Made by a program: the position numbers and the translations under genes. The notes below the pieces were generated by a model. It did no database searches. It was not told where the DNA came from and saw only the letters and a program-made list of their open reading frames with translations. A stretch of DNA of 37,848 bases from Heterotrichella gracilis. Taxonomy: Eukaryota; Sar; Xanthophyceae; Tribonematales; Xanthonemataceae. Positions 446 to 37,600 of this stretch are shown here, piece after piece; position 1 is the stretch's first letter; each line of letters opens with the position of its first letter. The stretch lies in the NCBI GenBank assembly GCA_032358255.1, contig JAULBX010027363.1, positions 1 through 37,848 of the forward strand, in the 5' to 3' direction.

Positions 446-490
446 TGTAGAGTCTAAGGGGGCATACCACATGCACTTCTGCGCAGGCCA
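446..490 (-). repeat. Exon echo of the 390-1 exon start
   Basis: On the minus strand this intronic stretch repeats the acceptor and first coding bases of the exon starting at 390: a CTGCGCAG acceptor followed by a diverged copy of the bases for VQVVC. It lies upstream of the real acceptor in the same orientation. Divergence is substantial, so the call leans on the similar cases elsewhere in the window. Confidence 0.5.
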
Positions 491-902
491 TTTGTGGTGT
501 GAGGTGGACTGTGTGACACAAGAAGAAGACCTTGGATAATAATGAGTAAACACCACAGCTAAGTAAATAGCTTAAGAACAAAGATAAACCATAAGAAGAA
601 GGGAAGAAGAAACATAGGCAACAAAATGGGGGAGGAGCAGCATCCCTGCAGCATAGGTGTGCACAGAAATGCACACCCATATGCGCACAAAAAATGATCG
701 CACCAACCAAGCACGACCCAGGGGCGTCCTGTGTAGCATTTAGGGTGTTTCCCCTCCTGAGTCATGGAGAGCAGCTTAAGGGTTTTACCTCAGCACACAA
801 GGAATATCTGTGGGTATCTGGCAGGGGTAGCCCCGTGGCAAACAACATCACGTTTCAGATCCTCTGGAACCCTAGCCCTCAGCCCCAAACGCTAACCACT
901 GC

Positions 903-1128
903 CACCCTCACCGGCTGCAGCAACTGGCACGCCCAATGCAGCCCAACCCTTATGGAAGCCCTAATCTGCTGTGTTGGTGCCCAAGCCCCTTGTACCCCTC
1001 GGCTAAAACCCCCAAACCCTGCCATCCTCACCCTACAACACCTTGCGCTTCACAGCCTCCGAGAACCCTAAACCCAAACCCTTGCATCCTGCAATTCTCA
1101 CAGTCTGCAGCACGTCGCGCTTCACCGC
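903..1128 (-). repeat. Three echoes of the 1267-1640 exon end and donor
   Basis: Plus-strand blocks at 903-940, 1025-1064 and 1095-1128 each resemble the exon-end/donor region at 1262-1300 (CTCAC, then CTGCAGCAC or a variant, then TTGCGCTTCA-like sequence). They lie in the downstream intron in direct orientation and decay with distance: 1095-1128 is closest to the original and 903-940 the most diverged. CCCTAAA-like motifs lie between them. Confidence 0.55.
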
Positions 1129-1266
1129 TACACCATAAAACCCCAAACCCGGTAATAATTACCTCTGCTGCAGGGATGCTGCCCCTGTCTCAGCGTGTAG
1201 TCTATGTCCCACTGGGGCACGACGGGTACATTATTACTCTAATTTTAATTCTAATTCGATACTCAC

Positions 1267-1640
1267 CGTCTGCAGCACATTGCGGTTCAGTGCCTTTGAA
1301 AACACCATGCGCTGCCCGTAGCATGGCAGCTGTGCTGGGGGTGGGGGCCGCTTGATGGGTCCCTTCGGTGGGGGCCGGCGGCGGGGGGGTGGAGCTTTGT
1401 TGACAGCCGCTAGTGCACGCCGGTGGGTGGTGGTGGTGGTGGTGGTGTCCCACTGCTGAGGGGTGGCTGGTGTGGGGACTGGGTGGGGGTGGTGGGGCAC
1501 AGGGCCATCTGTACGAGGTGGGTCCGAAGGGTGGATTAGAGGTGGGGGGGAAGGTGGGGCGGAAGGTGGGGGAGGGGGGTTGCATCCCACCTTGGGCAAT
1601 GGGTGAGGTAGGGGTTCAGGGGTGGTAGAATTGGGTTTAA
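1267..1640 (-). CDS. Pro-rich glycoprotein, upstream exon
   Basis: The minus-strand exon ends at a GTGAGT donor (1261-1266). It encodes a Pro/His/Thr-rich linker with PPPPPSAPPSPPP and a run of seven Thr, then a compact segment LPCYGQRMVFSKALNRNVLQ. The last codon is complete and splices in phase 0 to the 390-1 exon, giving NVLQT-VQVVC. Cysteines in both exons suggest one small Cys-paired domain interrupted by an intron and flanked by Pro-rich spacers, a modular plan common in algal matrix proteins. The 5' edge of the exon is not certain: the frame stays open to about 1644 and further exons must lie upstream. Confidence 0.5.
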
Positions 1641-1649
1641 ACAACCACT

Positions 1650-3160: not shown

Positions 3161-3162
3161 CA

Positions 3163-6120: not shown

Positions 6121-6132
6121 GTCTGCTGCTAC

Positions 6133-6800
6133 CCCCCGGCCCCGCGCGCCAGCGGCACCCTAAAGGGCTTGCGCTTGTACATGCCAGGCGCACGAGGGGG
6201 CACCACTTTAGGCCCCCCTTCTCCCCGCTGCGACGCCCCTCCCCCGTCCCGCTCTGAGCCTGCCATGGGCCCTGGGGCGATGTTCTCCTTGTGCAGAAGA
6301 GATCCTCCACCAACACCAACACCTCCATTGCTGACACTGTTATGCATGTGGCCACCACCACCACCACCACCACCTCCTCCTCCACCAACACCACCACCAC
6401 CACCACCGCCGCCGCCGCCGCCGCCGCCACTGCTCCTACGCAAGTGAGGGACGGTACCGCCACCACCACCGCCAGCCCCACCACCGCTGCTGTCTATGTG
6501 AGGGACAACACCAGCACCACCGCCACCACCACCACCACCACCACCACCTCTGCCTCGACCACTGTCAGGCTGTGTCCCCGCCTCACTATCTGCTGCTGCT
6601 GCGCATTCCTCTTGGAATGTGTTGCTGGGTGGTACGGAAGTTCGGGTGGGGTCCTGCACTTGCCCGGGCGGGCGCATGAGTGGCAGAGCCGGCACTGCCA
6701 TGGATGCACCCCACCTGGGCTGCGCACGTGGTTGTGGGGCTATGGGCAGCGGATGCCAGGATGGGGACCCTGTTTGGTCTGGGATGTTTGGGAGAACCAC
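6133..6800 (-). CDS. Poly-Gly, disordered exon; probable C-terminal region of the RecQ gene
   Basis: The minus strand is open through a Pro-rich start, an acidic patch (FQEECAAAADSEAG), long Gly runs broken by VVPHIDSSGG and TVPHLRRSSGG, and then KENIAPGPMAGS and a basic end, MYKRKPFRVPLARG, before a donor-like GTAGCA at 6127-6132. The ordered non-Gly blocks on both sides in one frame indicate real coding sequence. It has the same strand as, and lies downstream of, the RecQ exons, with an apparent intermediate exon at about 7180-7368 (VNPSEPTSTSRPTAA...). Assignment to RecQ is inference: no second start or stop separates them, but splice joins were not proven. A separate Gly-rich gene is the alternative. 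Confidence 0.4.
6340..6560. repeat. CCA/CCG trinucleotide microsatellite
   Basis: Three dense tracts of CCA, CCG and CTC triplets on the plus strand encode the Gly runs of the minus-strand exon. The triplet phase is constant and the runs are separated by conserved non-repeat coding blocks, so the repeat appears to be under reading-frame constraint. Confidence 0.85.
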
Positions 6801-7329
6801 ATGTGCAGGGCTTTGTGTGGGGTCTGCAAGCGCGGCCTGGTAGTGGTCCAGTACTGGTGGTAGCTTCCTGCGTTTGGTAAGGCCCAGCCTGCAGGGACAT
6901 GCGGAGGGTGTTGAATGCCTAACCCTTAAACCTTACACATGCAGGCACATGTAAAGATGTTGGACGCGCGAATGCTTGTCAACACATGCACGCATGCGTC
7001 ACAGTGTTGTACGGCAACCATGCAGGGCCACGCTGGGCGCAGTGGGTAATCTATGGGTGTGCGGGCTTAGCATGCCTGAAAGGGCAGGCGCGGTATGCGA
7101 GGGCCGCTGGTGCGCAAGATGCATTTCCTATGCAAGGACACAGTGCATGAACCACATGCATGCCCCACCTGCGCAGGGGCACCACTGGTTTGACGACCTC
7201 CGCGGCATCAAGGGGGCCCTCCCCATCCCTGCCCCCTGTTCCTGCTGATGGTGGTGGATTTTCACCTGCTGCCCCCCCAGCAAGGGCTACTGCTGGCTGC
7301 CATGCGCATGCGGTGCGTGGTGCGGCTGT

Positions 7330-7585
7330 GGGCCTGGAGGTGGAGGTGGGCTCGCTGGGGTTGACCTGGGGAGACGTGGGGTTGTGAAGGGGCTGAAAAT
7401 AATCCGAGAATAATTTATGATCATCTGCTGGCAATCACCACAACAGCATACTACCACCAATAAAAACCCACAGTAAAAAATGAAATTTTCTGTAATATGT
7501 TGCAATGTGATGTCGGCTGTGGGCCTGGACGCGGGGGTTGCCTCGCCGGGGTTGACCAAGGGGCATGAGGATTGGTGAGGGGGCT
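7330..7585 (-). repeat. Direct duplication of an about 80-bp Pro-rich segment
   Basis: Plus-strand 7322-7402 and 7505-7588 match over TCGGCTGTGGGCCTGGA-type sequence, the GGGGTTGACC core and GGGGGCTGGAA-like ends. Minus-strand translations are FQPLHNPTSPQVNPSEP and FQPPHQSSCPLVNPGEA. The copy at 7330-7400 has an acceptor-like CCCCAG before VNPSEP and is the better exon; the other looks like an echo of its 5' edge. Confidence 0.6.
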
Positions 7586-7799
7586 GGAATTTTTCTGTGT
7601 ATGCTGCACTACGGATCATGCGGCAAGGGGGCAGCTCTGGCGACCCGCAACTGCATACCACCACATCATTTCGTAGAACTACATTCATATACAATCATCA
7701 TATAATGCAACATGATGTAACAATATATTATTGCAACTGTTCTCGCTAAACAGCCATTCTCCCCTAACTCCCCCCACCCCCCACGTACCCCTCCCCTAC

Positions 7800-10323
<2,524 letters not shown>

Positions 10324-10845: not shown

Positions 10846-13800
10846 ATGCCCCCTCGTGCGGCTGCTCGCAGCAGGCCAGACACATACCGTGGTGACGATG
10901 TGGCAATACAGCAGGCTTTTATCCAGGCTATGCAGAAACGGTGTTGGCTCCCCGAGACAGAAGCCAAGGACCTGTTCAAACAGCTGTGCAGTACAGAGGA
11001 GGGTACGCACCACCAACCGTCTGACTGGTGCTCTTCACTTGATTTCATGCGTCAGCCATTCGAGTGTCCAGTTTATGGCATATTTTATCGTCTGTTTACT
11101 GTCCTGTTGTTGTCACATGGATCATATGCATGCATTGTGTCTTGCCGAGTATGTTTCAAGATGCCTGTTATAACGCCCAGACTGTGACAAGATGCCCGTG
11201 CCTGGTTCAGAGACGGAGTATGCAAACTTTGTGGCCAAGTGCAACCAGACGCTTGGACGGTTTTCCTTCCAGATCAAGCGGATAAAGCACCTGGTACGCC
11301 ACCGGTTGTGCACAAGCTATGTAGCTGTGGGCCCGCGAGGCAAGAAGGACACTGCACGCCACCTTAGCACCTGTGCTGACCCATTCTTTTGCTATCATTG
11401 GTGGTGCTGCCACCGCCTTATTGGTGTGCCATTTAACACCCACTACCTGCGGGAATACCCTTCGTGGTTCGGCCAAGTATGGCGGTGTGTATTGGCGTGC
11501 AATGTTTGATGGCGGTGTGCCTGGCTGCAGGTCGATGGCGTGTGGTATATCGCGTTCATCAACAAGGTAAGTGGTGCACCACAGACTCGGAACCTTTCCC
11601 GCGCAAGCACGCTCATTACATGACTAAGGCCCAACTGCTCAGGCGCACTCCCACAGCTGCCACCCACACTCCCGACCCCCCGTGGATATCTGATGCTAGG
11701 CACCCACACTCACACCCTGCTGCTGTCTGTCAGCTTGCGTCGCTAATCCACCCTCCCCACCCTACCCAACCCACCGCCATCCGCCCGCCAGGGCATTGCA
11801 TGGCATACTGTCCCCACTCCCTTTGCATAGAATGCTCCACCCTTGTGCACAACTGACAATGCCCTTGGTGTGCTACCACAACCAGCAGTGTACTGTACCT
11901 GTCCATGCTACAACTTGACCCCCTCAGCGCTGTCCATGCCAACCACACGCCTTCGCCCTGTCACTCCCCTTTTTCTCTTTTTTCTCTGAAGGAGACCCGG
12001 TTATTCGTCTGCGGATTTTATATTGACCAGTTTTCAACGTTTGGTGTGCAGACAGCGGACTACGCTTCCAAGCTGGGCACGCAGTACAAGTATGCACAGC
12101 TGGCGTTCTTCAAGGCACTGGTGAGTCCAGGGAGGCTGGTACTGGTCACACCAAAACCCCCTACTATAGTCCACTGTGCACGAACCGCTGTACCTGGCCT
12201 CAACCCTGATGGGGGGTGTACTAAACCATGACCGGACACCCCACGCCCATGGCCACACAGTACCAGTGCACGCAGCTGCTGTTGTTCAAGGCGCTGGGGA
12301 ATAGCACCTAGTGGCACCTAGTGGTGTCACTAGTTCAAGGCACCTTGTGGGGCACCCAATGCCTGCTGCACACCAAAACCCTAAACCCTAGGCTCCTTTG
12401 TTCGCCCGACAGTCTTGCATGAAACAATGGGTGGGCAGGGCCCAGGCTGCTTCCCACCAGGATGCTGCCCAATCCTTAGCGGCAACGCCACCCGCACAGC
12501 CCCACCCGGAAAAAACTGCTGTATCCGGTGGCTGCATTGTGCTCATGCGCAGTGCGCACCACCATTTCACCTATGCCTGCCTGTGCGGCGGTTCAAACAC
12601 CACACCCGGGGGGATGGCACTGCATGGTAGTAGGCACGCATAGATGTGGGTTTGGGTGTGGGAGGTGGCACTGCTAGCACTGCTAGCCACACCACAGGGA
12701 CCTAGCTGCACCACCCTGCCTACCTGCGCCTTGCTAAATGCCAGGCTTGCGACAGGGAACACGCTTTCTTCCTCCACCCCTGGCTAGTGTCTGCTAAGGC
12801 ACCTATTACGTCAACCGTGTTACTGACACAAGCCATAACGAAGTCCCCTCCTAGACCCAGCACACACAACCCGAGTCCCATCTACCCCCTTCCTCACAGC
12901 TTGAAGCCCTAGCCACCGAAGAGGAGGACCTGGTCGCCCAGGTGGGCGTGATGTCCTCCACCAACGCGCTGCACGTGAGCCTGGCGGCAGTGAGCAACAC
13001 GCAGGCGGGGGAGGACAAGTCGACGCAGGTGGGTGGGGTGTGGCGGGTGTGGCTAGCTGCATTTGTGCGGAGTGTTGGGCGACGAACTAGAGACGAGAAG
13101 GCACCAACGAGCACATTTTCCAGCACAGTGGTATAGGCGCAGTCCGTAAGTGCACAACTCTGTCTTTCGCGACAAGTGAAGGTTTTGTTTTGCGACAAAC
13201 TAGTGAAATATGCCCTTGTCGTCGTTCAGAGCTTGCAGAAAATGCATGATGATCATCCGAGTCTCGTTGGTGTAGTTGGTTATCACGTTCGCCTCACACG
13301 CGAAAGGTCGCCGGTTCGATCCCGGCATGAGACAGTTTTTTTTGCTCCCCATCCTGTGCCCTGGGATGCCTTTTAAGGCTGTTCTTTTGCTTCCTTTGCT
13401 CTCTTTACAATCTTGTTGTTCATTGGGCTGTTTTTTGAAGCCATTCAGGGTGTGAAGCCACGTTTAAGTTGGGGTGAAGTCAGGGCCAAGGGGGAAAATA
13501 CCAGCCACCCGTGGTACATCTTTCGCCATACAAGAGGTTGGTGGGGATCAGGGTGGAACATGGGTATCCACCCCAAATTTGCCAGCAGGGACAATGTAGG
13601 GAGCTACGTAAAAGCCGAATTGAAGCGCAGTTATCCTTGGTATGGTCGTTGAAATGATAAAAATGGTGGCTATCCACCCCCTGTGCTCACCATCCGAATG
13701 CAACCAAGATGTGACCCGTCCCCAGCAAGACGCAGGGGTGCTCCGGGGCCTACCACCTCATGGTGCCAAAAGTGAGGCGGGGATCATTTAAATCGTCATA

Positions 13801-14996
13801 TATGACTAAACCAATGCGGGCACTGGCAACATTGCAAGCAAAAAAAATAAATACGTAAAAGAAATAAATACGCAAATGCAATTACAATACCTGATTCAAT
13901 GCAATATGTTAATCTGATTGTTGACACTGTCCGCGCACCCTTGTGCGGCTTGCATGCGCCCTGTGGCCTTGGAAAGTTGCGCCACTTTGCACCCTTACTA
14001 TAGGTCCAATGTCCGGGGTTCCCCCTTTCGCCCCCACCCCCACACCCCCACACCCTCCCACAGGACCTCAAGTTGCGTGGGATCAGTAAGTGGCTTAAAC
14101 AGTGCCAGGAAAGAGCTGCGTGGCGCTGCATGTGCAAGACTGGCCGCTTCTCTGGCTGTAATCCTGGAATACATGGAACTACCTAACTAACTCCCACACC
14201 CCTGCAGGCCCCCCCAGCCCACCTCACCCTGGGCGAGCGCGAGGACAGCATGCGCGAGTTTGTGAGGGACGGGTGGCTCATGGACGCACCGGGGCGAGCA
14301 GGCTACCTAACCATCGGGGTGAGTACGCATTGCAAAACCCCAAATACCCTGCTACTGGGATTTCTTACTGGAAAACCATGCGGCTGTAAATCGACAGAGC
14401 TCTGTACATGCGTTCATGTGGGCTCATGCGGTGTGAATGGCGTGGGGACTGTCCACATGTGGTTAGGTTGCTAGGGTATGGTTTGTGCGGTCGGGCTACC
14501 AGCTCAACACTCCATTCAGGGCTTGGGGTTCATAGTATGGCCTTAATGTTGTTTGCATGCGGCAGTACTGCTCAACATGACAACCCTTTCACAGGAACTG
14601 TTGCCATTCAGTCAGCGCTCATTCTGTGCCTGTTACAAGTCGAGGCAGTGTGGACAGCCAAGTAAAGGTTTAGGGTAAGGTTTAGGGTTTAGGTCGAGGC
14701 GGTGTGGACAGGCAGACCTACGCCCGCCTGCTCCTTTGCTCCGACGTATAGTCTTGAGGCTTGAGGCTGTAGGGCTAGGTCTAGGGTTTAGGGCGGTGTT
14801 TAAATGGTTGCATGTCTATTTGCCCACACCACCACCTGTTCATTTGCAATGACGCAGCAAAGCTGCAGCATTTGCCCTCGCTACTGACCTGTTGTTGCAT
14901 GTGCAGCCCCGTTCCTTCCTCGAGCTGAGCAGCTACCTGCTAGCGCTGCCTGACCTCCCAGAGGAAACTAAGGCTGCATGGGAGCGGGTGCTGTGA
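10846..14996 (+). CDS. NSE1: NSE1, SMC5/6 complex subunit (winged-helix part; RING not found)
   Basis: NSE1 binds NSE3/NSE4 in the SMC5/6 DNA-repair complex and usually ends in a RING-like domain. Seven exons: 10846-11002, 11181-11293, 11531-11566 (36 nt), 12052-12120, 12900-13028, 14208-14318, 14907-14996; every phase joins, giving 234 aa. Recognition rests on ordered similarity to the family: AIQQAFIQAMQKRCWLPE; ANFVAKCNQTLGRFSFQIKR; VDGVWYIAFINK-TADYASKLG; AQLAFFKAL-LEALATEEE; VMSSTNALHVSL; LGEREDSMREFVRDGWLMDA; and LELSSYLLALPDLPEE. These cover the winged-helix region up to about human residue 185. The last exon ends in TGA at 14994, overlapped by a strong GTGAGC donor at 14993, so splicing to a RING exon is possible, but none was seen before 16.6 kb. 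Confidence 0.85.
12253..12303 (+). repeat. Echo of NSE1 exon 4 end
   Basis: The exon end at 12074-12120 (ACGCAGTACAAGTATGCACAGCTGG..., TTCAAGGCACTG) is repeated at 12253-12303 with scattered substitutions (TACCAGTGCACGCAGCTGCTG, TTCAAGGCGCTG). The copy lies in the intron about 180 bp downstream in direct orientation. Its donor has decayed from GTGAGT to GGGAAT. A further scrap (GTTCAAGGCACC) occurs near 12332. Confidence 0.75.
13261..13334 (+). tRNA. tRNA-Val, anticodon CAC
   Basis: Complete cloverleaf. Acceptor arms GTCTCGT (13261-13267) and ATGAGAC (13327-13333) pair with one G-T, followed by discriminator A. The D arm includes GTTGGTTA, the anticodon stem is TTCGC/GCGAA with loop CTCACAC (anticodon CAC), and the T arm GCCGG/CCGGC has loop TTCGATC. 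Internal A box (TGGTGTAGTTGG) and B box (GGTTCGATCCC) are present. A run of eight T at 13336-13343 is a pol III terminator. No intron and no encoded CCA. It lies inside NSE1 intron 5 on the same strand. Confidence 0.97.
13335..13343 (+). terminator. RNA polymerase III oligo-T terminator
   Basis: G followed by eight T immediately after the tRNA-Val discriminator base, the standard pol III stop. It sits within the intron of a pol II gene in sense orientation. Confidence 0.85.
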
Positions 14997-15104
14997 GCAG
15001 GGGGGCATGTCGCAAGGGGAGGTGACGCACATGTGTCCCTGGACTCTACTATGTGCGAGGACAGGCCGCTTCTACCAACCAGATACGGCTTTGGTTGTTG
15101 CACA

Positions 15105-15205
15105 AGGTCGTTCCTGGGGTTGAGAGTCTACCTGCTGGCGCTGCCGGAGCTGCCAGAAAAAACCTAGGCGGCACGGGAGCGGGTGCTGTTAGGGGGGTAT
15201 TTGAT
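15105..15205 (+). repeat. Echo of the last NSE1 exon
   Basis: This block repeats exon 7 (14907-15010) about 200 bp downstream: TACCTGCTGGCGCTGCC, GAGCTGCCAGA, GGAGCGGGTGCTGT and the G-rich flank. Its translation follows the exon (YLLALPELPEKT) but meets TAG at 15165-15167. The copied region extends past the exon into flanking sequence, and similarity (TGGACTCTGTTATG) continues to about 15280, so the unit is about 200 bp. Confidence 0.85.
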
Positions 15206-22886: not shown

Positions 22887-25800
22887 ATGACGGGGTTTTT
22901 GGGTCCGTGCTGGCTGTATGCTATGTGGGTAAGCCAGTGCTGGTTTCGATCCACGGCGGGGATGTCCCGTGCTTGCTTGCTAGATCACCCGAAATCGTTG
23001 GTTCAGCTCAGGGGGTGAGTCACCGCTACTCTAGGGAGCCCATTGGCCCCGTTTGTTCGCAGACGGCGGTGGTGAACAACCAGGGGGCTCTTATAGACCA
23101 CTCCTGCGCCACCTTGGACCCATACAAGCCTGCACTAGCCTCCCCAACCCACCGGCATCCCGTCCCATCTGTCATTGTCACCCTGTGTACACGTCGCCTT
23201 TTGATTCCCTCCCGGCAGCACGGGTGGTGTCCCTGTTGACAACGCCACACCCAAGGGTTGCTGGTACCAACCCACTGCCTATGACATAGGCACTGCGCTA
23301 TGCATACGCGCATGTAGAGCACACACCCTCCCGCCCCCCCACACACTCCCCCAGCGCCACTTGTCCGCGCCCACCCCCAAAACTGCCAGCTTCCCCAAGA
23401 CCAAAGTACGCAAAACAAAGTATCCCCCCTTCCCCCCAGCAGGACTACATTACACCACCTGGGCTTGCCCCTCAACCTGCGCTAACACACACATCCACCC
23501 CAATCACCCCTGCAACCCCTCCTTACCCCTCCCCTCCCACACCACCACCACCACTCCTCCCCCGCCTGACTTCCCCTCCCCTTTTGCAGCACCGAGCTCG
23601 CCTACCTTGCATGGGCCTCCCGAAACAACAAGACCCTGTCCAGCCGCATGCGCCTGTTTGCAGCTGCGTGCTGGGTGTGTCAGGTGGTGAACGCAAGCCT
23701 GAATGCGCACACAGCAGCTCGCAGGGGGTACGCGGACCCTAAACCCTAAGCTCCAAGCCCCAAGAGATTTGTGTGCTATGTGGGCCCTACACCCTACACC
23801 CTAAAATGTGCTGGGCGTGCAAGCTGGCCAACGCAAGCACGACTGCACACAGCGGCTTGCAGAGGGTACAAAGACCCTAAACCCTGAAACCCTAAGAGAG
23901 GTTTTGCGCATACCTAGACCCTAACCCTGCACCTCAGGCAGGGTGTTGGGCAAAAGCAAGCACGCAGACCCACACAGCAGCCAGAAAGGGTATGTGGACC
24001 CTACCCTAAACCCTAACGCGCTGCACCCTAACCCTCTGAACCCTAACTGTCGCCCGTGACCCCGTATAAACCCTAACCCTATGCAAATCCAACCCTTAAC
24101 CCTCCTCTCATGCTTCTGCCAGTTTGACGCCACTGGCGCCTCCCCACACTGCAGGGACACCGTTTGAAACCTATCCCTGACCAATCTACACCCCAAACCC
24201 TAAGCTTTCAAATCACATTTTACCACTGACGCCCTTGTGTCTCCCGCACAATGCAGGGACACCGGCAGCGCTCTCAGGCATGTCTGCATCGCATTGCTTA
24301 TCCTGTTCAACCTATTGGGTAACCTGTGGGCGCTGCGACTGATGCTGTCCAGGAAGTGGTGAGACCCTAAACCCTAATTGTGCCCTGGGTGGCATACTCG
24401 TACTGCTCATGCCACTGCAACCTGTATGTGAAACACCACGCCATGCAAAAACCCTACCTGGGGTCACACAAAACCCTAACCAGGGTTCCTGCCCTGCAGG
24501 CAGGATACAGGTCTTGAGGTGCTGACATCGTTCGTGCCGGTCCTGGCATGTTGCATGTAGAATACCCTGGTCTAGGGTAACAGAACCCTGTCCTAGGCTA
24601 CAAGAACCCTACCTTGTGAGTCATAAGTTATGACAAATTCCTAACCCAGGTTCCTGTTATGCAGGCGGGATGCAGATCTCGAGGTGGTGACATCTACCCA
24701 CCATGCCCTGCAGAAAACTCTGCCTGGGTCACAATTGACTCGCAACACTCACAAAAACCCTAACCTGGGTTTTCTATACTGCAGGCGGGATGCAGATCTC
24801 GAGGTGGTGACTGCGCGTGTGTCTGTGCTGGAGACTGGCATGATTTTGGGGTGTAACATACTTCAGAAGAACGCGGAGTACATGTTCGGGATGCCCTTCA
24901 GCTGCCTGCTGCTCAAGTCCATGTTCCAGAGCTTCGAAATGGTGCGGGCGTGCAAAACCCTAACCACAACCCTAAACCCTAGCCACTTACCTGAATTCTG
25001 CCCCTGAAGTCGATGTTCCAGAGCTTTGAGATGGTGCCAGCGTGAAATCCAAAACCCTAGTCCAGAAACCCTAGATGGTGCACCTTTGGCCAAAGACTGG
25101 AGACCCATAGCTCCCTGGCTGCGGTTCCCACAACCCCACCACCCAAAACCCTGCTGTGCCCTTATAACCCCGATCCAACCTCCAGGCGCTGCTCGTGCTG
25201 CAGTGCCTGCTGAGGCACCCCGTTTGACCCCGCTCATAACCCTATTTTGAGGGTGCAAAAGGTGCCGACAACAAAACCTGGTGAAACCCTCTCCCTGTGT
25301 GGGCACACCAGGCAAACCCCATCGGCAATACCCTGGTAAAGCCCTGACCCACATCCCTACCAAAGTGAGGTGTGGGCTGGAGGTTGGGCTTGTGGTAGAG
25401 CAGGTGATACAGCCCTCCCCCAGTGGTCAATAAACCCCTATCAATTACTTGTTAGGTACGTGCATTCCACCAATACAGCCAGAATAGCAATCAGCAGTCT
25501 TGCACATGCTGCGCCAAGCAGCTCTTTCCTGGCGCTGTTGGAACCACCTAATGATCCCACGCCACTCGAGGTCCTGCTGGGGAAGGTCAGCCCATGTGGT
25601 GGCCTGCCCCCTTTGCCCCCTCCACCCTACCAAACATTACACATTTGTAGGGACTCGGGCGTGCGATAGAGGCCCTTGATGCCCCAACCAGCATCAGGAC
25701 TCTGGTTACACCCCTACCCCCCATACCCTACCCCCGGTACCCAACTCAAACCCTACCTGTACCCTACTGAACCCCCCGTCCCCTCCTGCAGCTGCGGCTG

Positions 25801-27892
25801 GAGACTGACCTCGTGCTCCAATGCCTGGCGGTCCTTGCATTTATGTTGGGGCAAGCGCAGCTGGTGGGGTGGGGGGAGAGCAGCTGGGCTCGGGCGGGGT
25901 GCGAGGTGGTGCTGGGGGGCGCAGTGGCGCTGGCGGCGCAGCCTGCGGTGGTGGCGCTGAGAGAGGTGAGGGTTTTGGGGGTCCTGGGCTTTAGAGCGGG
26001 CGGGGTTGCGGGCAATTTGCAGTGTCAGTGCAGGATGCAGTGGTGACATGACAGTGAGAATTTCTTTTGGGGATTTTTTTGGTGCGGGGTACGAAGTAGC
26101 GCTTTGGTGGTTGGTTGGGGGGGTGGGGGGAGGTGGAGCTGGCGGCGCAGCCTGCGGTGGTGGCGCTGAGAGAGGTGAGGGTTTTGGAGCGGGTGGGGTT
26201 GCAATGAAATCTGCAATGGGGCAGGATGCAGTGGGCGCAACCTGCGGTGTTCTTCTGTGGGGGAGGTATTTTTGGGCAGGGTGCGAGGTGGGGCTAGGGG
26301 GAGCGGTGGCGCTGGCTGCGCAGCCTGTGGTGGTGGCGTTGAGAGGGGTACGGGTGGCATGCAGCTTGCTCTGAGGGCGCAGATTGCAGTGTCGGCGGTA
26401 GGCGAGGGGGTTTTGGGTAGCGTTTCAGGCGCAGCTACTGGGATGGGGTGCAAGGTGGCGAAGGGGGTGGCGGTGGTGATGGCGGCGCAGCCTGCAGTGG
26501 AGGCGTTGCGGGTTTTCACGGTTTTGGGGTTTATTGCGGGTGGGGTTTCGGGCTACTTGGAGGGTTGGTGCAGGATGCAGTGGTGGCGTGACGATAAATA
26601 GTGATCATGATATCTACCCGCAAAGTGTGAAAATGACAGAGGCCAAGTTGGCTGATACCAATATTGCTGCACTCTCACAATCCCCCCCCTTTCCTCTGCA
26701 GTCCCAGATGCGCGACCTGTTCCTCTCCCGCCACAGCCTACCCCCCGCCCTGCTGGCACCCTTTTGGCGCCACGTCACCGCCACATGCGCCGTGCTGGAT
26801 AGGGCGGGTGCGCGGCTGGGGCGAGTGGGGGGTGCAAGGGGGCGAGGGAGGCAATGAGGAGAGGGGAGGATATTGGAGCCACATGCAGGGCGCCTGGGCC
26901 GGGCGGAAGCGAGCTTGATATCTTGGGGCTGCAGATCCCTAGTCCAGGCCCTAGAATGGCGTGGCTTGGTTCGGGTGAGGGCGGGGTGGAAGGCGGGCGA
27001 GGGGTGTGCTGGGTGTTGTGGTGGATGCACAACTCTGGTGTAGGGTCTACCCTGGGGTTAGGCGAGGCAGTGTAGCGAGGGTGCGCACTTGGATGAAGGA
27101 GGAGAGGCGCATGGGGCTGCGGGACCAGCGAGGGTTTAGGTTCAAGGGTTTAGTTGCTAGGGTCCAGGGCAGGTGTATTGCAGTGGCGCGAGCTTGTGAG
27201 GGACCACTGGAGACATGCTGGGTGGCCTGCGCTGCCAAGAGGATTTAGGGTGCGGGGGATTTGATTCATTAGGGTTTTTCAGCTGTCCTGTAGGGTTGGG
27301 GTACATCTCCTTGTGCCCGCCTGTGCACGTAAATAACATTACATATCCCGAGCCAGGATACAGGCAAAGCAGCCTGGGCGCTGTTTTTGCAGGACTTCAA
27401 TAGTATATTGCCGTGCGGGTATTTGTTTGCTATAGCTTCCTTTTCTCGCTTTCTCGCACCGGCCGACAATTTATACATAGAAGTCCAGTTCATGGTGAGC
27501 TGTGAACCAGGCAGCATGCGTATGCCACTCGCGTGCTGCTTCTTTATAGTCAGTTGCGATGCATGTCCCGTTATTCTTTTCAGGCATATGACGCCTCTCT
27601 AGGTGCTTTCTCACTGGTAGGTTGGTTAGGTGCATGCCATCCGGCAACACAGCCTGTTATTGGATGGATAAACTAGGGTTTCAGGTTTAGGGTTAACCAG
27701 AATCTGGTTTGCAGTCAGCCTTGCACATACCGGGTCAATCTGGTGCTGGCAATGTTCATATGGCTTGTGTTTATCATCACACTATCTGTTTATTCTTGTG
27801 CAATCCAAGGTCTGCTGTGCCAAGTTGGTCCTCCAGGGGGGGGACTATATATCCTGTCCAGAAACGTGGAGTTCGACTCGAATGCCTGCTAG
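22887..27892 (+). CDS. Multi-pass integral membrane protein, unrecognised family
   Basis: Nine supported exons: 22887-23014, 23590-23727, 24257-24358, 24785-24941, 25792-25965, 26702-26807, 27393-27494, 27584-27616 (33 nt) and 27719-27892. Phases match for the first six and last three; an extra exon is needed between 26807 and 27393, where the phase differs. Hydrophobic segments include LFAAACWVCQVVNASL, VCIALLILFNLLGNLWAL, LVLQCLAVLAFMLGQAQL, VVLGGAVALAAQPAVVAL, CGYLFAIASFSRFLA and VNLVLAMFIWLVFIITLSVY. Soluble parts contain DADLEVVTARVSVLETG and SQMRDLFLSRHSLPPALL. It ends FDSNAC. The start ATG at 22887 is supported by phase only. A peroxisomal PEX11-like protein was considered but not supported. 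Its introns carry more exon echoes than any other gene here. Confidence 0.6.
23806..24005 (+). repeat. Two echoes of membrane-gene exon 2 end
   Basis: The exon end and donor at 23660-23745 (TGCTGGGTGTG, AACGCAAGCCTGAATGCGCACACAGC, GGGTACGCGGACCC, then CCCTAAACCC) recurs at 23806-23890 and 23925-24005 with more decay each time. Each copy carries the following CCCTAAA-like motifs, so intron sequence was copied too. Confidence 0.85.
24140..24180 (+). repeat. Echo of membrane-gene exon 3 start
   Basis: CCTCCCCACACTGCAGGGACACCG at 24140-24164 resembles the acceptor and start of the exon at 24257 (TCTCCCGCACAATGCAGGGACACCG, 24239-24263). The copy lies about 100 bp upstream of the true acceptor, keeps AG, and then diverges. 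Confidence 0.7.
24496..24691 (+). repeat. Two echoes of membrane-gene exon 4 start
   Basis: The acceptor plus first 27 coding bases at 24781-24811 recurs identically over 31 bp at 24661-24691, exactly 120 bp upstream, and in diverged form at 24496-24526 (GCAGGCAGGATACAGGTCTTG). All three have an AG acceptor in the same phase and are preceded by similar intron text (AACC..GGTT, CAAAAACCCTA). This is one perfect and one decayed echo. Confidence 0.95.
24995..25044 (+). repeat. Echo of membrane-gene exon 4 end
   Basis: GTC(C/G)ATGTTCCAGAGCTT(C/T)GA(A/G)ATGGTGC at 24917-24946 is repeated at 25009-25037, 92 bp downstream in the intron, with the GTGC donor retained and followed by (G/A)GCGTG in both. 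Confidence 0.9.
25880..26590 (+). repeat. Four-copy, about 190-bp array spanning exon 5 end and intron
   Basis: The exon 5 end (GGGGTGCGAGGTGGTGCTGG... GCGGCGCAGCCTGCGGTGGTGGCG, ending at 25965) plus its GTGAGGGTTTTGG donor is followed by copies ending near 26175, 26345 and 26510, each with G(C/T)GCAGCCTG(C/T)(G/A)GTGG and, in the first copy, the same donor. The intron part (GCAGGATGCAGTG) is repeated as well, at about 26030, 26221 and 26571. Only the first copy continues the reading frame of the exon. Confidence 0.9.
26830..27390 (+). other. Intron of the membrane-protein gene, exon possibly missed
   Basis: About 560 bp between exons that do not join in phase, so a short exon should lie here. 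None was identified with confidence. G-rich blocks and several TTTAGG-like motifs are present. Confidence 0.35.
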
Positions 27893-29763: not shown

Positions 29764-30269
29764 TGAGAAGCTCAGGCATAGAAAGGCGTCAGGCATAGAA
29801 AGGCAAGCTGTCACAGCAGACCTTTCAAGACAAGCGCTTTGTGAGTCACAGAGGGGTACAGGTGTCTGCACTCTGCTGCCCTTGCACCAAATGGCAGTCA
29901 CAGTGTGCAGAGGTTACTGGCTGTGCAAGTCCGGTCCAAAAGCCTGAAGACTTTGCCGAAATATAGGATATCTGCAATATGTCAAACAAGCCTTGGCTAT
30001 TGGACTGGGGTGAGGCATGAACCCAGGCACGCTAATCTGGAGTCAAGGCTGGACTGTGCACTCCAGCTTGGGAAGGGACCATACCTACGTTTTGCACCCA
30101 CCCAGTGAACTCAGAATAGCACGATCGGGTTAGGAGGCAGGGCGGCAGCTGACCCAGCATCACTGCACCCTCCATACTGAGGGGGGAATGTTGATAAAGC
30201 TGCGGTCACCGGTGCTGGAGTGGGGGTAGTAGGAGCAGTGGCTGTAGTGGTGTGGCTGTCTTGCTATTG

Positions 30270-30515
30270 GTGGTGGTAGTGGTGGTAATACCCACTCCTG
30301 GGGTGCCCGCAACACCTCCCCCAGCGCTGGCGCCGCGCCTCCTCACTCCCCTCAGGGGGTGACAACCATGCGGCACTCTCCACAACCTGGCTGCGACGTT
30401 GTTGGAGCACTGCTGGCGGCGGCTGTGGTGGTGGTTATACCCACAACTGAACCCATCCTCCTTTGGGATGCACTGTACGCGATGCTGGACCTCCATGCTA
30501 TGAGGAAAGCCTCTC
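30270..30515 (-). repeat. Echoes of the last CPO exon downstream of the gene
   Basis: Plus-strand 30270-30355 repeats the 3' coding end at 30570-30655 (TACCCACTCCTGGGG(C/T)GCCCGCA(G/A)CACCTCC, CGCCTCCTCACTCCCCTC), and 30427-30515 repeats the same end plus the next part (GGTTATACCCAC, GGATGCAC, CTCCATGC(A/T)ATGAGG). They lie beyond the stop codon, so the process is not confined to introns. Confidence 0.85.
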
Positions 30516-30582
30516 CTTAAGCAGCAGCGGCTAAAACAACTGAGCACCCTCCTGGCGGCGGTGGCGGTGGCGGTGGCGGTGG

Positions 30583-33500
30583 TTATACCCACTCCTGGGG
30601 CGCCCGCAGCACCTCCACCAGGCGCGCCTCCTCACTCCCCTCCTCAGGATGCACGTTATACTTCCATGCAATGAGGGGGGGTGCGGAGACCATAATGGAT
30701 TCCAGGCGACCCCCATTTAGCCCGAATTTCACCCCCCGATCGTAGAGCAGGTTGAATTCCAGGTACCTGCGGAAAAACCCACCGCACGATTGTTAATTTT
30801 TGCTGCAGTGTCGCAAATTTCGCCACAAATTCTAAGCACCAGGCGCACTCTTCAGGAAAACATGTATCACTGGTGCATATGAAAATCTCCTGCAAATTAT
30901 TATAAAACATCAAACATAGGAAAACAACCTCCCAAAACAATGATATATGATCAAGGTACCTGCCCCGCCTCAGCAGCTGCCATTGACGCTGATCGGGTGT
31001 GAAAGGGAGCGAGGAGCGGCGCTCGGCAATGGCCGTCCAGCTGGGGATGATGCCGGTCCCCACGTCACGCACAAACTGCAGGCAAGGGTGTTTCTCAGGG
31101 TTTTGGGAAGGGGAGGGTTTAAAATCAGGGTGCGCTGGTGGCGATGTGGGTGTCCCACTCGGTGCAAGATTGGTGAAGGGTTTGGGGGTTGCTGTAAAGG
31201 GCCAACGTGTCTTGGATGGCATATTCCCAGCAATCCAGGAGATTCGAGTGCCATAACCTGTTGAACCTATCTCGTGTTTATCTTCGGATGCATATGTGTG
31301 ACTTTTTGGCAACTTGAACAGGAATGAAAGAGCAAAGTCCTTCACAAGCACCCACCTGTCCCACGTCATAGTCTGCTGACGTGGCATCCAGATCGTCAAA
31401 AAATATGCCCCCAATCCCCCTGTGCTCCTGCCGTGCGGGGATGTAAAAGTACCTATCGCACCATGCCTTGAATTCAGGGTACAAATGCGGCGCGTGCGCG
31501 TCGCACACCCCCTTCCAGAATGCGTGGAATTCCGTGGCATCTTGGGGGTTCAGGTAGGCTGGGGTGAGGTCGCAGCCGCCCCCATACCAGGCCTGGCCGT
31601 CCACCTAAAAGGGGGGGCATGGGAGGTCACAGGGAAGAAAAGTAATTGGTGTCATTACCGTAGGTGCAAGGTGCATAAATAGAAGAAAAACATCCAGTAA
31701 AAATAATGGGTGTCCGCTTCAGCAACTGCATGCTGCATGCACAGTGGTATGGGGCCTACCAACCCCCGGTCTCCAGCTGCAGCTGCAACTCCCGCTTACA
31801 TAAACCCACTGATTGCCATGACTGGCCTCCTCCCCACGCCGCCACCACCACCACCTCACCTCAAACAGTCTGAAGTCCGCAGAGTGGGCACCAAAGGGGG
31901 TGCGAGGTGGAACACAAGCTAATGCCGCCTCCACTCGTACCCTAAGGAGGCAAGGACCGGTGCCGGGAGGTGTATTAGGAGCCCCCGCAGGATTTACATG
32001 TGCGACACACTATATACCCCACCCACCCCCACCACCCTCCCACCTCAAACAGCCTCACGTCCGCCCGCAGGGTGGGCACCAGGGGGTGTGCGGGATGGAA
32101 CACCAGGGAGAGCGCAGCTGCGGCATATGGCTGACCTCCCCTGGGGTTGATGTTGCTTCGCCCCCTTGAGCTCATGGCTTTGGCCCGCTCGGGGGTCAGC
32201 ACGCCTCGCACCACGGTGATGTTGGCAGCGGCCTGTGATCGGTGGAGGGTTACATTAGATCGTTTGTAATGAATGATTTGGATCTGAGGGGTATGGGTGA
32301 CACTGGCTATGGGGGTCAGCACCCCTCGCACCACAGTGGTGTTGGCAGCGGCCTGTGATTGGTGGGGGTAGTGATTTCATCAGTGGACAATCACAAATCA
32401 ATTGTTGTTTCATGTATTTTGCCTGCTGAAGTCACAGCTGACAGCTGGATGGGGTTGAGCACCACTTTGGTGTCGGCGGCCGGAAGCGATCGGTGGAGGT
32501 AGCGGTTTTGTCCAGGAGTAATCATAGGCTACCCTGATGTCGGCGGTGGCGTCTCATCAGTTTTGATCAGGGATGTTAATACATAAACCAGGAATTGCAG
32601 GAATTACAAGAATTGCATAAGCATTGTTGAATAACATTCACATGATATTCGCGGCGGCCTCTGATCGGTTTCGACACCATCCAATATATATCATCCGAGG
32701 TGTTAGTGAACCTGGAACCCTGGAATTCCTCCATATGATGATGATGTGAGGGAAGCGACACCGCTATTTGGTTATCGCAAGCTAGCCAAAAGCAACCCCT
32801 TGCAGCTGGGGCTCATCCCCTGTCCACCCACCTTTTCCAGCAGGTCCCCACCCTCCAGCACGCACGTGACGCCGTACCCTGCGTTAGGGTTATCGGGGCT
32901 GCGCTCCCACCGGTCCTGGAGGAAGGTCTTGCCACTGCCATCGAGCTCCTCAGCTGCCTGAGGGCATGCGAGCAACAGTATTGAAAATGATCGATTTAGA
33001 AAAAATGGAAACATTGTATTTGTATATAGAGGACGGTCTTGCCTCTGCCATCAAGCTCCTTGGCTGCATGAGGGCATCCAAGGAACAGTTCAAATAGCGA
33101 TCGATATATAAAGAACATTATTTAGAATAACGTTTTGCCACTGCCACCAAACTCCTCAGTGTGAAGGCATGCACATAGGTGTTTATGCGACTGGATTTTT
33201 CTACAATAAGGTCAGACGTCCTGCCAAGGCTACAACTTGGCAAACGCACCTTTGCAACATTTTTTATTCGCCACCTAGAATGGACATTCCCCAGTTACCT
33301 TGATAATGCTTTGTTGCGTATCCAGCAGGTAGCCAGCAAATGCCTCGCTGATGCCGGGTGCATCCACTGCCGCTGCTGCTGATGCCATTACCCTACTTAG
33401 GGTGTTCCAACGGGCATATCCTTTGCCTAGGGTTATGTGGCGCTGGCGGTGGCGGACCCATGGAACGCCATGGCGGGCCATGGCATGGCGCGGCGCGGCA

Positions 33501-33586: not shown

Positions 33587-35258
33587 GGTGGAGGGGTGCG
33601 CTGGGGAGGTAGCCCTGGGTCGCTTTTGTGGAGGTTTATCCTGCGGCAGGCGGGTTTGAGGTAGATGTGGGCAGGATTGTCCAGAGGTAAGACAAATAGG
33701 GTAGGGATATATGATGCTGTGCCCGGATTTGTGATGGGGATACTAACCCTTGGGTCATTGGACCCCAAGTTTACCAGCAAGTGGCCTACGGTAAAGTTTT
33801 GTGTGTGTGCGCAAGCAGCAAACATAGCAGCGAACAATAGCAGTAATAGTAAGTACTGCCTTATTACGCTGAACGACGCAATTATACTTGTGAAAGCTGC
33901 ACTGGCAGTTGAAAAAAACCCGCTGTGTATAGTCTCGCTATTACCTTAGGCAGGCACCCCAACCTTGCCAATCAGCAAGGGCGCGACAAGCCAAGGGTAC
34001 CCCTCAGCAGGCGCTGTGCCACATTTGCGCAGTCGTCAGGGTTGACAGGGTTGACGGAGGATACTCAACTGTCAATACTGCAGGAGTCGTGGGTTCAGTG
34101 AGCTGGGGCTAGGGCACATGCACATGCAATGCATGCATGCATATGTTGCAAGGGCGAGCTATCGAGGCGTGACTAGAAGCAAGGCGTGCCACACGCTACG
34201 AGTGCATCGAGCAAACGAAATACAGCTGATGAGAGCAACTCCGGTACTGCAACACGTCGGCATTTTAACCTTATCCTGATAAAACGAGTTGCGTTTTGAA
34301 GGAAATGTTTTTGTTTTTCAATTTCTGTAAATTTGACAGGCGAAAATGCCATTTCTTTTTCTACCTCGCAACCACCAGAACGGGCCATTCCTTCTGGATC
34401 TGTTGCATAGCAACCAAGCGAAACCTACCGATATTCTATTATGTCCATCCACTTGCTTCCCACCCACATCTTGCGCCATCCTCGGGACATGCTCATGCCT
34501 ACAGCGCCCTCAAGAAGCAGTCACGACACAGTACCCGCCACGAAGTTGCACCAGGGGCACTGTCGCTGCTAAGGACGACACTTCCGTCGCCTGAACGACT
34601 CGGCAATTTCGACGGGGTGGTTAAGAGGTGGGTGGGGCCGATTGCAACGCGACTCCCCACAATGCATGCATATGCACAACGAGTACCTCCCTGGACTACG
34701 AGTACCTTCCTGCACAGGGAGCACCTGCCTCCAAACCGACCGGCTGCACCATTACCTTCCCGATATAACACGTCAAAAATGCTATTCAGTGCACGCGCGT
34801 GTTTGCACTAGCAAGGCATGCATGCCTGCCTACTGCCATGGAAATTCAACTCGCGCGCCAATGGGGTGCACCTTACAGTTGGGCGATGCTTGCAACCTAT
34901 CTGGATATCTGGTTTTACCCATGGCTACGTCCATCTCATCCCCCCATGGCCTTCTCATCCCCCGCATCCTCAACCACCTCCCACCACCTGCAGGACACAC
35001 AGTAGCCTTCCAACCCTCCCTCAACAGCTTGGGAGCCGGGAGGCGCCACAGGTACCACATGCGACACCCTCCCCTCAGGGATCCCCACACGCCACCGGGG
35101 GCCCATCAGATTTAGGGTTTAGGGTCTAGAGTCTAGGGTCCCAGGCCTGGTGAACCCTACCCAGCGCAGCAGCAGCGTGGCAGCTTTTCACTCAGCACTT
35201 TTTTGTTATGGTCCGTCCTTGCCAGTGAGGTCAGCCGTGTCGGCAATTCTCCTTCGCC
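33587..35258. promoter_or_regulatory. Divergent intergenic region between CPO and MED16
   Basis: 1.67 kb between outward-facing ATGs. No convincing gene. The plus-strand ORF 34296-34811 and others lack family features. Alternating purine-pyrimidine ATGCATGC runs occur near 34125-34142, and a TTTAGGGTTTAGGGTC motif at about 35111. It presumably contains both promoters. Confidence 0.45.
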
Positions 35259-37600
35259 ATGACGTCCCCGCAATATGTTCTCCCGGGGATTCTGGAGGAC
35301 ATCCACTTCACAGGGCAGGTGGCGGGCCCCCGCAGCGCCTGGGATCGATCCACCAACCTGATCGCCATCCAGCTGGAATCCCAGGATGCGGTTTCCATCC
35401 CCGTGGCAGTGACCGATCCCTCGTGCCCCAAGGTGGGTTGCATGGAAAACCCTAAGAAACCCTTTGCAAAACCCTAAGAAACCCTCTGAAAACCCAGGAT
35501 GCCAACCCTGATGCAGTGATCGACCCCTCCTCTCTTGGGAGCACAAAAGTAGCGGCACCGAAACCCCATAAAAACCCTGTGAAAACCCTAGATGCTGATT
35601 CAGTCCTTTGCCAGCGATTGTTCCACCGTTTCTATAGTCGAGTGTGAAAACTGTCGCATTGACATGCCCATTTAATAGCCATGGTAAATACCCACGAAAA
35701 CCCTGGATGCTGATTCAAAGGTTGGGTAACCGCCCTGCTCACCCCACACACCTCATCGGCTCTCCCTGAACCAACCCTTCTTTTTTAGTAAGGTACCCCC
35801 CCCCCCCTCCCCCCATCCGCGCCATCCCCACCCCATTCCACCATCCCCCCACCCCCCCGTAGGAGCACACCCTCCTCCATGTGCCACGTGGCGATGCCTC
35901 AGAGACCCTGGTGGGGCTGCAGTGGGCGCCACCAAACACAACAAGGTGGGAACCAACCAAAACCCTACAAACCCTAGCCCCTGAAACCCCACAAACCCTA
36001 GCCCTGAAATCCTCCCAACAGGGAACTGCTTGGGGTAGTCTCCAGCAAGGCAAATATGCGACCCCTGCCAGCAAAAACTATGGATTGGAGTTAAAATACC
36101 ATGTGGCACTGCAGATTCATTTTCTTATTATACATTTTTATTGTTTGTTCAATTTGTTACTCCCTGCAGGGGCCTGCTGACTGTGGTGTCCAGCGGTGCT
36201 TGCTACCTGTGGACTAACGCCAAGGCGGAGGCGGCACCCAGTGAGGTAGTCACCCTGTCGCACTGGTTTGGCAACAAGATCTTCCAGCTGTCTTCCGAGC
36301 CAGGTGGGTATTGTGAAAGGGGGCAGGGGTGCTTGGGGCTGTGGGCATAGCGGGGGACGTGGGGCGAGGGAGGTGGGGCAAGGCTTAAAATGGCAACGTA
36401 ATTAACGCAGAAGCTTTCTCCTTTGTAAATTACCACGCCTGTTGGAGGACAGGCTGCATAGTGCTTTTCTTGCTTCTTTTTCCCTGCATGGTCCCTCATC
36501 CCCTCCCCGTTCACCTCGCAGTTGCCGCCTCTTTTATCGAGCCGCCCTCCCCATTCCGCTGGCCTCCACAACCCCCTGCTGACGCGCCACCTGGCAGGTA
36601 AGAAGATACAGTCACCATCACACCAATAATGTTAGGGTTTGCGGTTTTGGCTTTTGGGTTTAGGACAATCACACTCATCGTCACAATATTCATCATTATC
36701 ACAATGACTCGTCACAATCGCACACACACCCATTCGCATAGGAACGGGCACAGGCACTTGCAATTACACCCACATCACACCCACCCACACGGCACTGACA
36801 GCCAGTCCATTCCAAAACCTTTACCCAAGCCCACATAAAAGACCCCAATCAGAAACCCTTTGCCACTTTGTGCAGGCACGAGGGCATCGACTCCCGATTC
36901 ATCCGCAGCGACGGGGGTGTGGTGGTGGAGGGGTCGCTGCATTGGGTGCGTCCAGGAGCGCTGGTAGTAGTGGCGGTGACAAAGGATGCACATGTGGAGG
37001 TACGGGGATTGTTGGCAGGGTTTCGGTAGGTTTTCGTTAGTCCTGTGGTATCGTTTGGGTGTGGCACGGTGGAGGTTTCAGTTGGGTTTTGGTAGGGTTT
37101 TGGTAGGGTTCTTTAAAATGGAGGAGGGCGCCGCACTGGGCGCGGTCTGGGGAGTGGCGATCTAAGATGGAGTCTCTGGCAGAGTGCCAGGTATCCTGGG
37201 GTTGAAGTGTACCACACCCTATCCAAAACCCTGACAGAAACATCTACCCCCCCTGCGCAGGTGCATTGGCAGGGGTTGCGGCTGGGGCATGCTGATGTGA
37301 TTACCCTCTCCAACAGCCGTGCCACAACCCTATCCAAAACTTAACCGCCACATTTTCAACCCCCTGCGCAGGTGCATTGGCAGGGGTTGCGGCTGGGGCA
37401 TGCTGCCCCCACCTGGCACACATGCCCCCCCTTCCCCCTACCCGTACGGACGGACCAAGGGGGGGAAGACCTACTGGGGAGTGCGGATGTGATTTGTGGC
37501 CAGGGAGGGGGCGTGCGCTTCCTGGTGGTGAAAAAGAGCGAACCGGAGAGGATTGCGCTGATGCAGATTGCAGGGAACCCCACGTTTTTGGACTCGGCAG
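35259..37600 (+). CDS. MED16: Mediator subunit MED16 (SFR6-like), N-terminal WD40 part, partial at right edge
   Basis: A tail-module subunit of the Mediator complex linking activators to RNA polymerase II. Six exons: 35259-35432, 35863-35945, 36170-36303, 36522-36597, 36876-36999 and 37372-37600; all phases join. More exons lie beyond the window. Similarity to plant SFR6 in order: SAWDRSTNLIAIQLESQ (the 'W-x-x-x-NLIA' start), ASETLVGLQWAPPNTTRGLL, TVVSSGACYLWT, VVTLSHWFGNKIFQLSSEP, ALVVVAVTKDAHVEVHWQGL, and LLGSADVICGQGGGVRF followed by ERIALMQIAG. These are degenerate WD40 blades. ATG 35259 opens MTSPQYVLPGILEDIHFTG. An exon 6 duplicate and a large inverted repeat sit in its introns. Confidence 0.8.
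37209..37293 (+). repeat. Echo (tandem duplicate) of MED16 exon 6 start
   Basis: 37209-37293 and 37319-37404 are direct copies, offset 111 bp, including CCCTATCCAAAAC, the CCCTGCGCAG acceptor and the first 33 coding bases (GTGCATTGGCAGGGGTTGCG...). The first copy then reads VHWQGLRLGHADVI, resembling the later GSADVI of the real exon, and meets a stop after SKT. Use of its acceptor would truncate the protein. Confidence 0.93.

Follow-up and report, generated by a model that had tools for sequence, protein, structure and literature searches.

The 37,848-base contig JAULBX010027363.1 of the xanthophycean alga Heterotrichella gracilis (assembly GCA_032358255.1), hereafter the window, contains short direct copies of exon edges lying close to the exons that they resemble, and such copies recur at loci throughout the assembly. 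These local exon-edge copies are real and not the product of chance. They decay as if free of selection, are the more diverged the farther they lie from the exon and fall into two structural classes. We consider, with moderate confidence, that they are the remnants of recurrent short local duplications (unit mostly ~70–210 bp) that would have arisen by repair of staggered breaks and been tolerated through splicing.

Local direct repeats in the window and across the assembly

The window is one whole contig (C485) of a 68.5-Mb assembly of 903 contigs. It was compared with itself using BLASTn (word size 7, E value ≤0.01), and three block-shuffled versions of it served as controls. At distances of 50–1000 bp, the self-comparison returned 27 direct-repeat pairs and one inverted pair, and no pairs were returned for the three shuffled windows at the same settings; beyond 1600 bp, one direct and three inverted pairs were detected. 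When a CCA/ACC simple-repeat stretch (6300-6560) is left out, the 27 direct pairs merge into 16 families, in which the nearest copy lies 92–211 bp away. An earlier note, made from the sequence of the window, had put this spacing at about 90–210 bp, and the measurements agree with it.

The pattern recurs in 56 other loci, chosen by Pfam searches for DEAD helicases and kinases and blind to repeats, which yielded 36 direct pairs in 18 loci, three inverted pairs and none in shuffles (L026, L027, L031 and L035, which represent the window or overlaps, and L001–L008 were left out of this count). With direct pairs far outnumbering inverted ones and the shuffles giving none, the copies are taken to be real. 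Long intronless genes of bacterial type, encoding aminoacyl-tRNA synthetases and HSP70, are present on contigs C111, C68 and C331; the assembly seems to contain bacterial contigs, and some of the unselected loci are possibly non-algal, in which case the density of copies in algal genes would be underestimated.

Copies at the exon edges of the CPO gene

The coproporphyrinogen oxidase (CPO) gene, on the minus strand, is the only gene of the window with exons fixed by homologs: they were located by tblastn with seven homologs, and the splice sites were read base by base. Among the best 120 of 7779 matches, the top-ranked ones with a named source come from green algae (Micractinium conductrix, 75 %; Parachlorella kessleri, 72 %), and those from other sources reach 77 % identity. 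The exon 2 acceptor edge has two copies, the exon 3 acceptor edge three, the exon 3 donor edge one and the stop-codon end two (one of them partial), and the window self-comparison returned no edge copies for exons 4 and 5. The features of this gene are as follows.

32832..32957, minus strand: CPO exon 2, real copy, 5′ edge repeated (tblastn with seven homologs; AG at 32959-32958, GT at 32831-32830)
33029..33115, minus strand: near copy of the exon 2 acceptor edge (paired with 32919-33005 at a spacing of 110; the similarity takes in part of the intron)
33129..33172, minus strand: far copy of the exon 2 acceptor edge (spacing 206)
32044..32232, minus strand: CPO exon 3, real copy (tblastn with seven homologs; splice sites read)
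32311..32368, minus strand: near copy of the exon 3 acceptor edge (spaced 120 from its partner 32191-32248, to which it is 91.4 % identical; AG retained)
32459..32499, minus strand: second copy of the exon 3 acceptor edge (76 %; AG lost)
32634..32674, minus strand: third and most decayed copy of the exon 3 acceptor edge (63 %)
31832..31918, minus strand: copy of the exon 3 donor edge (spaced 185 from its partner 32017-32106; GT kept; four gap positions relative to the exon)
30583..30766, minus strand: last CPO exon, coding part and stop codon, with its end repeated downstream (tblastn and reading)
30269..30353, minus strand: copy of the stop-codon end, 3′ of the gene and not intronic (partner 30566-30642; further partial copy at 30414-30444)
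30767..30959, minus strand: CPO intron 5

The introns had been named as the location of the copies, which holds for those of CPO exons 2 and 3 but not for those of the last exon, which lie downstream of the stop codon. The donor and acceptor sides of intron 5 have, on reading, GCAGGTACCT in common, and this intron may be a candidate trace of intron birth via duplication of an AGGT segment.

Distribution among gene models

Two sets of gene models were analysed. The PF00118 chaperonin set comprises eight genes fetched for their Pfam exon matches (C134, C189 and C498 are among those left out), and a further set of 44 genes provides 47 introns between adjacent exon matches (with at least two exon pairs omitted, C849 and C277:30117 among them); 14 of the 44 loci had already been scanned for repeats before selection.

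Four of the eight PF00118 genes carry copies and four do not. The 14 direct pairs of this set merge into ten families, all at exon edges, with one inverted pair and about 0.1 pairs in all in the shuffles; the exon end of one family (L072 1010-1042) was recognised by reading and not by Pfam, and the single pair lacking exon bases is one copy matched against another. For the 44-gene set, ten direct pairs, one inverted pair and 0.1 in shuffles were returned. These were read as five exon-edge families (L095, L100, L104-467, L106 and L024-1404), one intron-only family (L029-1846) and three ambiguous rows; L106-662, which is intron-only by script, was counted within its exon-edge family. As the earlier note had it, donor and acceptor edges are both affected; among the genes whose exons homology fixes (CPO and the PF00118 chaperonins), a stop codon is spanned once as well. 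Its statement that copies accompany every well-supported gene proved too broad, given that 11 of the 71 introns bounded by adjacent Pfam exon matches in the two sets carry a copy, that half of the PF00118 genes have none and that none were found in two HSP70 genes with 12 introns between them (one of the genes fetched in part). The median length is 373 bp for introns bearing copies and 231.5 bp for the others (p=8e-4), although long introns also offer more room.

At the L100 locus (G000:C113:97750-98360), an exon-edge copy (205-335 / 397-525) that is 90 % identical to its exon is scored by Pfam as a second kinase match, illustrating that a copy with intact splice sites can pass for an exon in gene annotation.

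Decay and age order of the copies

At 12 ungapped edges of known frame, the 70 mismatches between exon and copy are distributed over codon positions 1:2:3 as 18:16:36; 32 of them are synonymous and 38 are not, with one stop. The distribution fits a ratio of 1:1:1.85, our own rough expectation for a constrained exon paired with a free copy (p=0.81), and not 1:1:1 (p=0.006).

Age order was assessed in 12 comparisons from ten arrays, two of which were used twice, and in three of which the exon is inferred or known from one Pfam match. The far copy is the odd one at 44 sites and the near copy at 19 (p=0.002 if sites are independent), and at 16 sites of multi-copy arrays, the copies differ from the exon by a common change. 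Taken by comparison, the far copy is more often odd in eight of the 12, and the other four are ties, bearing out the earlier observation that copies nearer the exon are better preserved. From this pattern of sites, it follows that several arrays grew by re-copying of the exon edge and that at least one (L072 2360-2660) grew by duplication of a copy.

Inspection by eye of 31 copies revealed that 22 keep the GT or AG of their splice site and nine have lost it (5/18 donors and 4/13 acceptors). Decoy splicing at the retained sites is possible judging from the sequence. Selective loss of decoy splice sites was considered and rejected, as the nine losses are about what divergence predicts (p=0.19).

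Structure of the duplications

Eighteen curated edges were aligned outward from the junction. The repeated exon part measures 19–112 bp, and the copies are partial exon edges, not intact frame-preserving exons with both splice sites; being partial, and with four gap positions in the CPO exon 3 donor copy, they were not accepted as duplicated alternative exons.

The intron part is also repeated at eight of the 18 edges, namely L029, L038 (twice), the L071 acceptor, L072-2410, L072-3068 (weakly, z=2.9), CPO exon 2 and window 37371. As close direct copies in which exon and intron parts are both repeated, these eight have the form of tandem duplications across an intron–exon boundary. A plain head-to-tail appearance is displayed by L038 (unit of 104 bp, copies separated by one base) and L071 (unit of 181 bp), and the spacers of L029, of L072-2410 and of one L038 array recur, by eye, between copies and not after the last copy.

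The other ten edges display an edge-spacer-edge arrangement, in which the repeat takes in only 0–27 intron bases and no similarity is detectable over the rest of the expected unit (z at most 2.1). L073 is the best example: 53/54 exon bases and 4/4 intron bases match, followed by a spacer unlike the sequence after the copy. L073 does not look like a plain tandem duplication, whose intron part should still show at that age. A genome search that skips very common words gave no match to the spacer of L073 and its junction other than the locus itself, and on the strength of this spacer, the single one examined, we rejected a mobile element as its source.

The earlier note had explained the copies by tandem duplication across junctions with one copy kept under selection. 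The codon-position pattern, the head-to-tail units that include intron sequence and the outward position of the older copies speak for duplication and a single selected copy; the tandem form describes eight of the 18 edges but not the remaining ten, at which the exon edge and 0–27 intron bases alone are repeated around an unrelated spacer.

Proposed origin and alternative explanations

In the origin that we favour, DNA broken so as to leave long staggered ends, or nicked once on each strand, would be filled in and rejoined. Direct joining of the filled ends would produce a head-to-tail duplication, and joining with filler would produce the edge-spacer-edge arrangement. A duplication lying wholly within a coding exon would be removed by selection, and one spanning a splice site or stop codon would be tolerated, at junctions because the splice site beside the exon body would still yield a normal message; the extra copy would end up in the intron or the 3′ untranslated region. 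There, the spare copy would decay at the neutral rate, and recurrence at the same edge would push older copies outward, the intron gaining about one unit per event. Several observations sit uneasily with this account. A single genome was compared, so the duplication events are unpolarised and there is no empty site to set beside them; the ten of 18 edges lacking a repeated intron part would require hypothetical filler or templated copying; the exon part appears by eye to be less diverged than the spacer in arrays L072 2360-2660 and L029; the copies are very uneven among genes (six families in L072, none in the HSP70 introns); and intron-only families make up 1/16 of those observed against 35–56 % expected, a deficit that random breaks leave unexplained and to which we return below.

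The closer resemblance of exon parts could indicate that copies are kept alive, either by gene conversion from the exon or because they serve as decoy splice sites or as edges of alternative or poison exons. The 41/41 identity at 37254/37365, compared with ~82 % (42/51) in the flanking intron, and the L072 and L029 arrays mentioned above are in line with this; however, the spread of mismatches over codon positions is that of a free copy, a frameshift is present in the CPO exon 3 donor copy, GT or AG is lost in 9/31 copies at close to the divergence expectation and far copies are more diverged, rendering the explanation improbable. Slippage during replication, or unequal exchange involving short direct repeats, with no double-strand break, would yield the head-to-tail class and would expand existing arrays, to which the changes common to both L072 2360 copies could be attributed. 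It does not yield the edge-spacer-edge structure of L073, with an unrelated spacer at 53/54 identity, and we judge it unlikely. An assembly artefact or chance similarity might be suspected in a mixed assembly with bacterial-type intronless genes on three contigs, but is scarcely credible: identities range from 70 to 100 % and carry a codon-position pattern, pairs occur on 18 contigs in the 56-loci set alone and the shuffles contain almost none.

Position of the duplications relative to exon edges

In the gene-model sets, junction-spanning families stand to intron-only families as 15:1 (PF00118, 10:0; 44-gene set, 5:1; ambiguous rows L104-784, L059-1417 and L024-868 dropped). A neutral account also predicts many junction-spanning survivors, because wholly exonic duplications are lost. 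When duplications were placed at random on the real gene structures and detected in the same way, the intron-only share of detected pairs was 35 % for tandem units and 56 % for edge-spacer-edge units, well above the share observed (p=0.010 and 4e-5, respectively). Decay bias was rejected as the reason for the missing intron-only pairs, as 160/180 simulated intron-only tandem pairs were still detected at 0–25 % per-copy divergence, but only 168/261 intron-only edge-spacer-edge pairs were; the simulated 35 % and 56 % already include detection losses from decay.

Exon edges might be preferentially duplicated, with breaks or template switches clustering at splice junctions (e.g. through R-loops or paused polymerase), an explanation compatible with staggered-break repair. 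In addition to the 15:1 ratio, it is favoured by the ten edge-spacer-edge cases, in all of which the repeated part takes in more of the exon (424 bases) than of the intron (109), although detection favours exon parts. Conversely, counting the ambiguous rows as intron-only (15:4) gives p values of 0.15 and 0.002, the CPO stop-codon family involves no splice junction and an estimate from coding potential over 45 families (window and 56 loci) places 42–71 % of them at exon edges according to the threshold used, a range that includes the 65 % expected of random tandem duplication. Exclusive placement at exon edges, suggested by the PF00118 set (ten families, no independent intron-only family), is weakened by the same estimate and was rejected. 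We regard a preference for exon edges as rather doubtful on present evidence; the gene models point to their being targeted (15 to 1), and coding potential does not.

Telomere-like heptamers in introns

The sequence AAACCCTA is among the commonest 8-mers, with 118 occurrences vs 7 in shuffles. The telomeric heptamers AAACCCT/TTTAGGG occur at ~9–15 per kb in introns vs 1.4 in exons, and within introns are ten times commoner than permuted heptamers (27.7 vs 2.75 per motif). Most telomere-like runs are single (162), with 13 double and two fourfold runs; window 24906-25074 is an example of intron sequence with such heptamers. Raw counts suggested a polarity, with TTTAGGG near donors and AAACCCT near acceptors, but this was rejected, as it fails when counted by intron (11:3, p=0.06; 11:6, p=0.33) and when clusters around exons are counted instead (at 100 bp, Fisher 0.40 and 0.34). 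We make no claim that telomerase is involved.

As a speculative extension, which we consider unlikely in its full form, splice junctions could be hot spots at which 20–110 exon-edge bases are re-copied into the neighbouring intron, repeatedly and outward, lengthening introns, with the same break repair leaving telomere-like filler. Whether splice junctions are fragile sites becomes, with these copies, a directly testable question.

Comparison with known systems

In the potato RdRp gene, a tandem genomic duplication across an intron–exon boundary resulted in the gain of a new intron (PMC4974935). The H. gracilis copies are similar in that local tandem duplication extends over a splice junction and the copies inherit splicing signals, but differ in that the extra copies, most of them decayed, lie in introns that already existed and have accumulated repeatedly in a large number of genes, whereas the potato case concerns a new intron in one gene. 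Daphnia neointrons contain direct repeats ascribed to staggered double-strand breaks, and repeated rounds have been proposed to lengthen introns (PMC4202315). Both systems display intronic direct repeats, some of them of adjacent exon ends; however, the exon-shared repeats of Daphnia measure 4–12 bp and belong to new introns, and the repeated exon part reported here measures 19–112 bp. In the Daphnia type, the repeats flank inserted filler; at the 10/18 edges with an edge-spacer-edge arrangement, the spacer may have been inserted or may have been present beforehand.

Rogers and Bendich (2025) described direct repeats of 4–30 bp (mean 11.4) near splice sites as insertion scars (PMC11782384). 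Those repeats likewise lie within tens of bases of exon–intron borders but pair the two ends of one intron, whereas here the same edge is repeated at least once inside the intron. A mechanistic precedent is provided by mouse and human cells treated with Cas9 nickases, in which fill-in of staggered 3′ ends by CST-Pol alpha-primase followed by non-homologous end joining gives small tandem duplications (PMC8355091); filling and joining of both staggered ends is what we propose by analogy, although that precedent concerns mammalian cells, is not shown in algae and has no tie to exon edges. Introns can also be gained by AGGT tandem duplication of an exonic segment with splice sites (reviewed in PMC3443670). 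Exon sequence with splice sites is tandemly duplicated in both situations, but under the AGGT model the two copies enclose the entire intron and each supplies one of its splice sites, whereas the CPO and PF00118 introns that were read continue beyond the copy; CPO intron 5 resembles the AGGT type and may be a case of it.

With the potato and Daphnia cases already published, the suggestion of an undescribed class was too strong. We found no description of recurrent, decaying exon-edge copies genome-wide in the top matches from titles and abstract starts of the open-licence literature, a search to which subscription journals are mostly external. Elements of the process and single cases are known; what is new here is how densely the copies occur, how long a stretch of exon they repeat and that they form layers of different age. 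Introner elements are dispersed mobile families whose sequence is added as or inside introns. The copies described here differ from them, as each is similar to the exon beside it, and the spacer of L073, the single one examined, matches only itself. To our knowledge, intron lengthening without transposons is poorly documented; layered exon-edge copies in many introns would offer a countable record of it and allow the rate and size of small duplications to be measured against a neutral clock.

Other families and features of the window

Beyond CPO, the following families were identified in the window.

8618..8655, minus strand: exon end of the helicase gene (decayed copy 8414-8451, spacing 204, GT kept; coding signal; exon inferred from frame)
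37365..37405, plus strand: acceptor edge of an inferred exon (copy 37254-37294, 41/41 identical, spacing 111; weak coding signal)
24759..24811, plus strand: acceptor edge of an inferred exon (upstream copies 24640-24691 and 24464-24526)
24906..24962, plus strand: donor edge of the same inferred exon as 24759..24811 (copy 24998-25059)
25921..26592, plus strand: exon-end-like segment in four copies (spacings 209, 173 and 167)
7323..7589, plus strand: family 7323-7398 / 7514-7589 (first arm with coding signal)
12074..12300, plus strand: family 12074-12124 / 12250-12300 (coding signal)
14913..15197, plus strand: family 14913-15004 / 15108-15197 (coding signal)
17190..17423, minus strand: family 17190-17249 / 17365-17423 (minus-strand coding signal)
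20064..20359, plus strand: family 20064-20148 / 20275-20359 (first arm directly preceded by a coding signal)
23668..23885, plus strand: family 23668-23747 / 23808-23885 (coding signal weak and ambiguous)
24125..24264, strand not assigned: family 24125-24162 / 24227-24264 (no clear coding signal)

The flanking intron parts at 37254/37365 are similar but diverged, with 42 of the 51 aligned bases alike, and family 24125/24227 is probably a non-coding duplication. Of the gene names proposed in the earlier note, CPO is confirmed by homologs and the helicase by Pfam DEAD and Helicase_C domains, which sit in exons upstream of 8618..8655; its RecQ type was assigned by reading and not by Pfam. The frames guessed for NSE1, the DnaJ-type gene and MED16 gave no Pfam match, by which these names are neither proved nor refuted.

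The window additionally encodes a tRNA-Val gene (anticodon cac) at 13261-13334 on the plus strand. Finally, a dispersed repeat of ~95 bases, with no Rfam match at its window site, is located at 1161-1257 and, inverted, at 608-684. At least 38 further matches, 72–91 % identical, are spread over many contigs; in a large number of them the match begins at window position 1161, and two neighbouring copies are located on contig C102.

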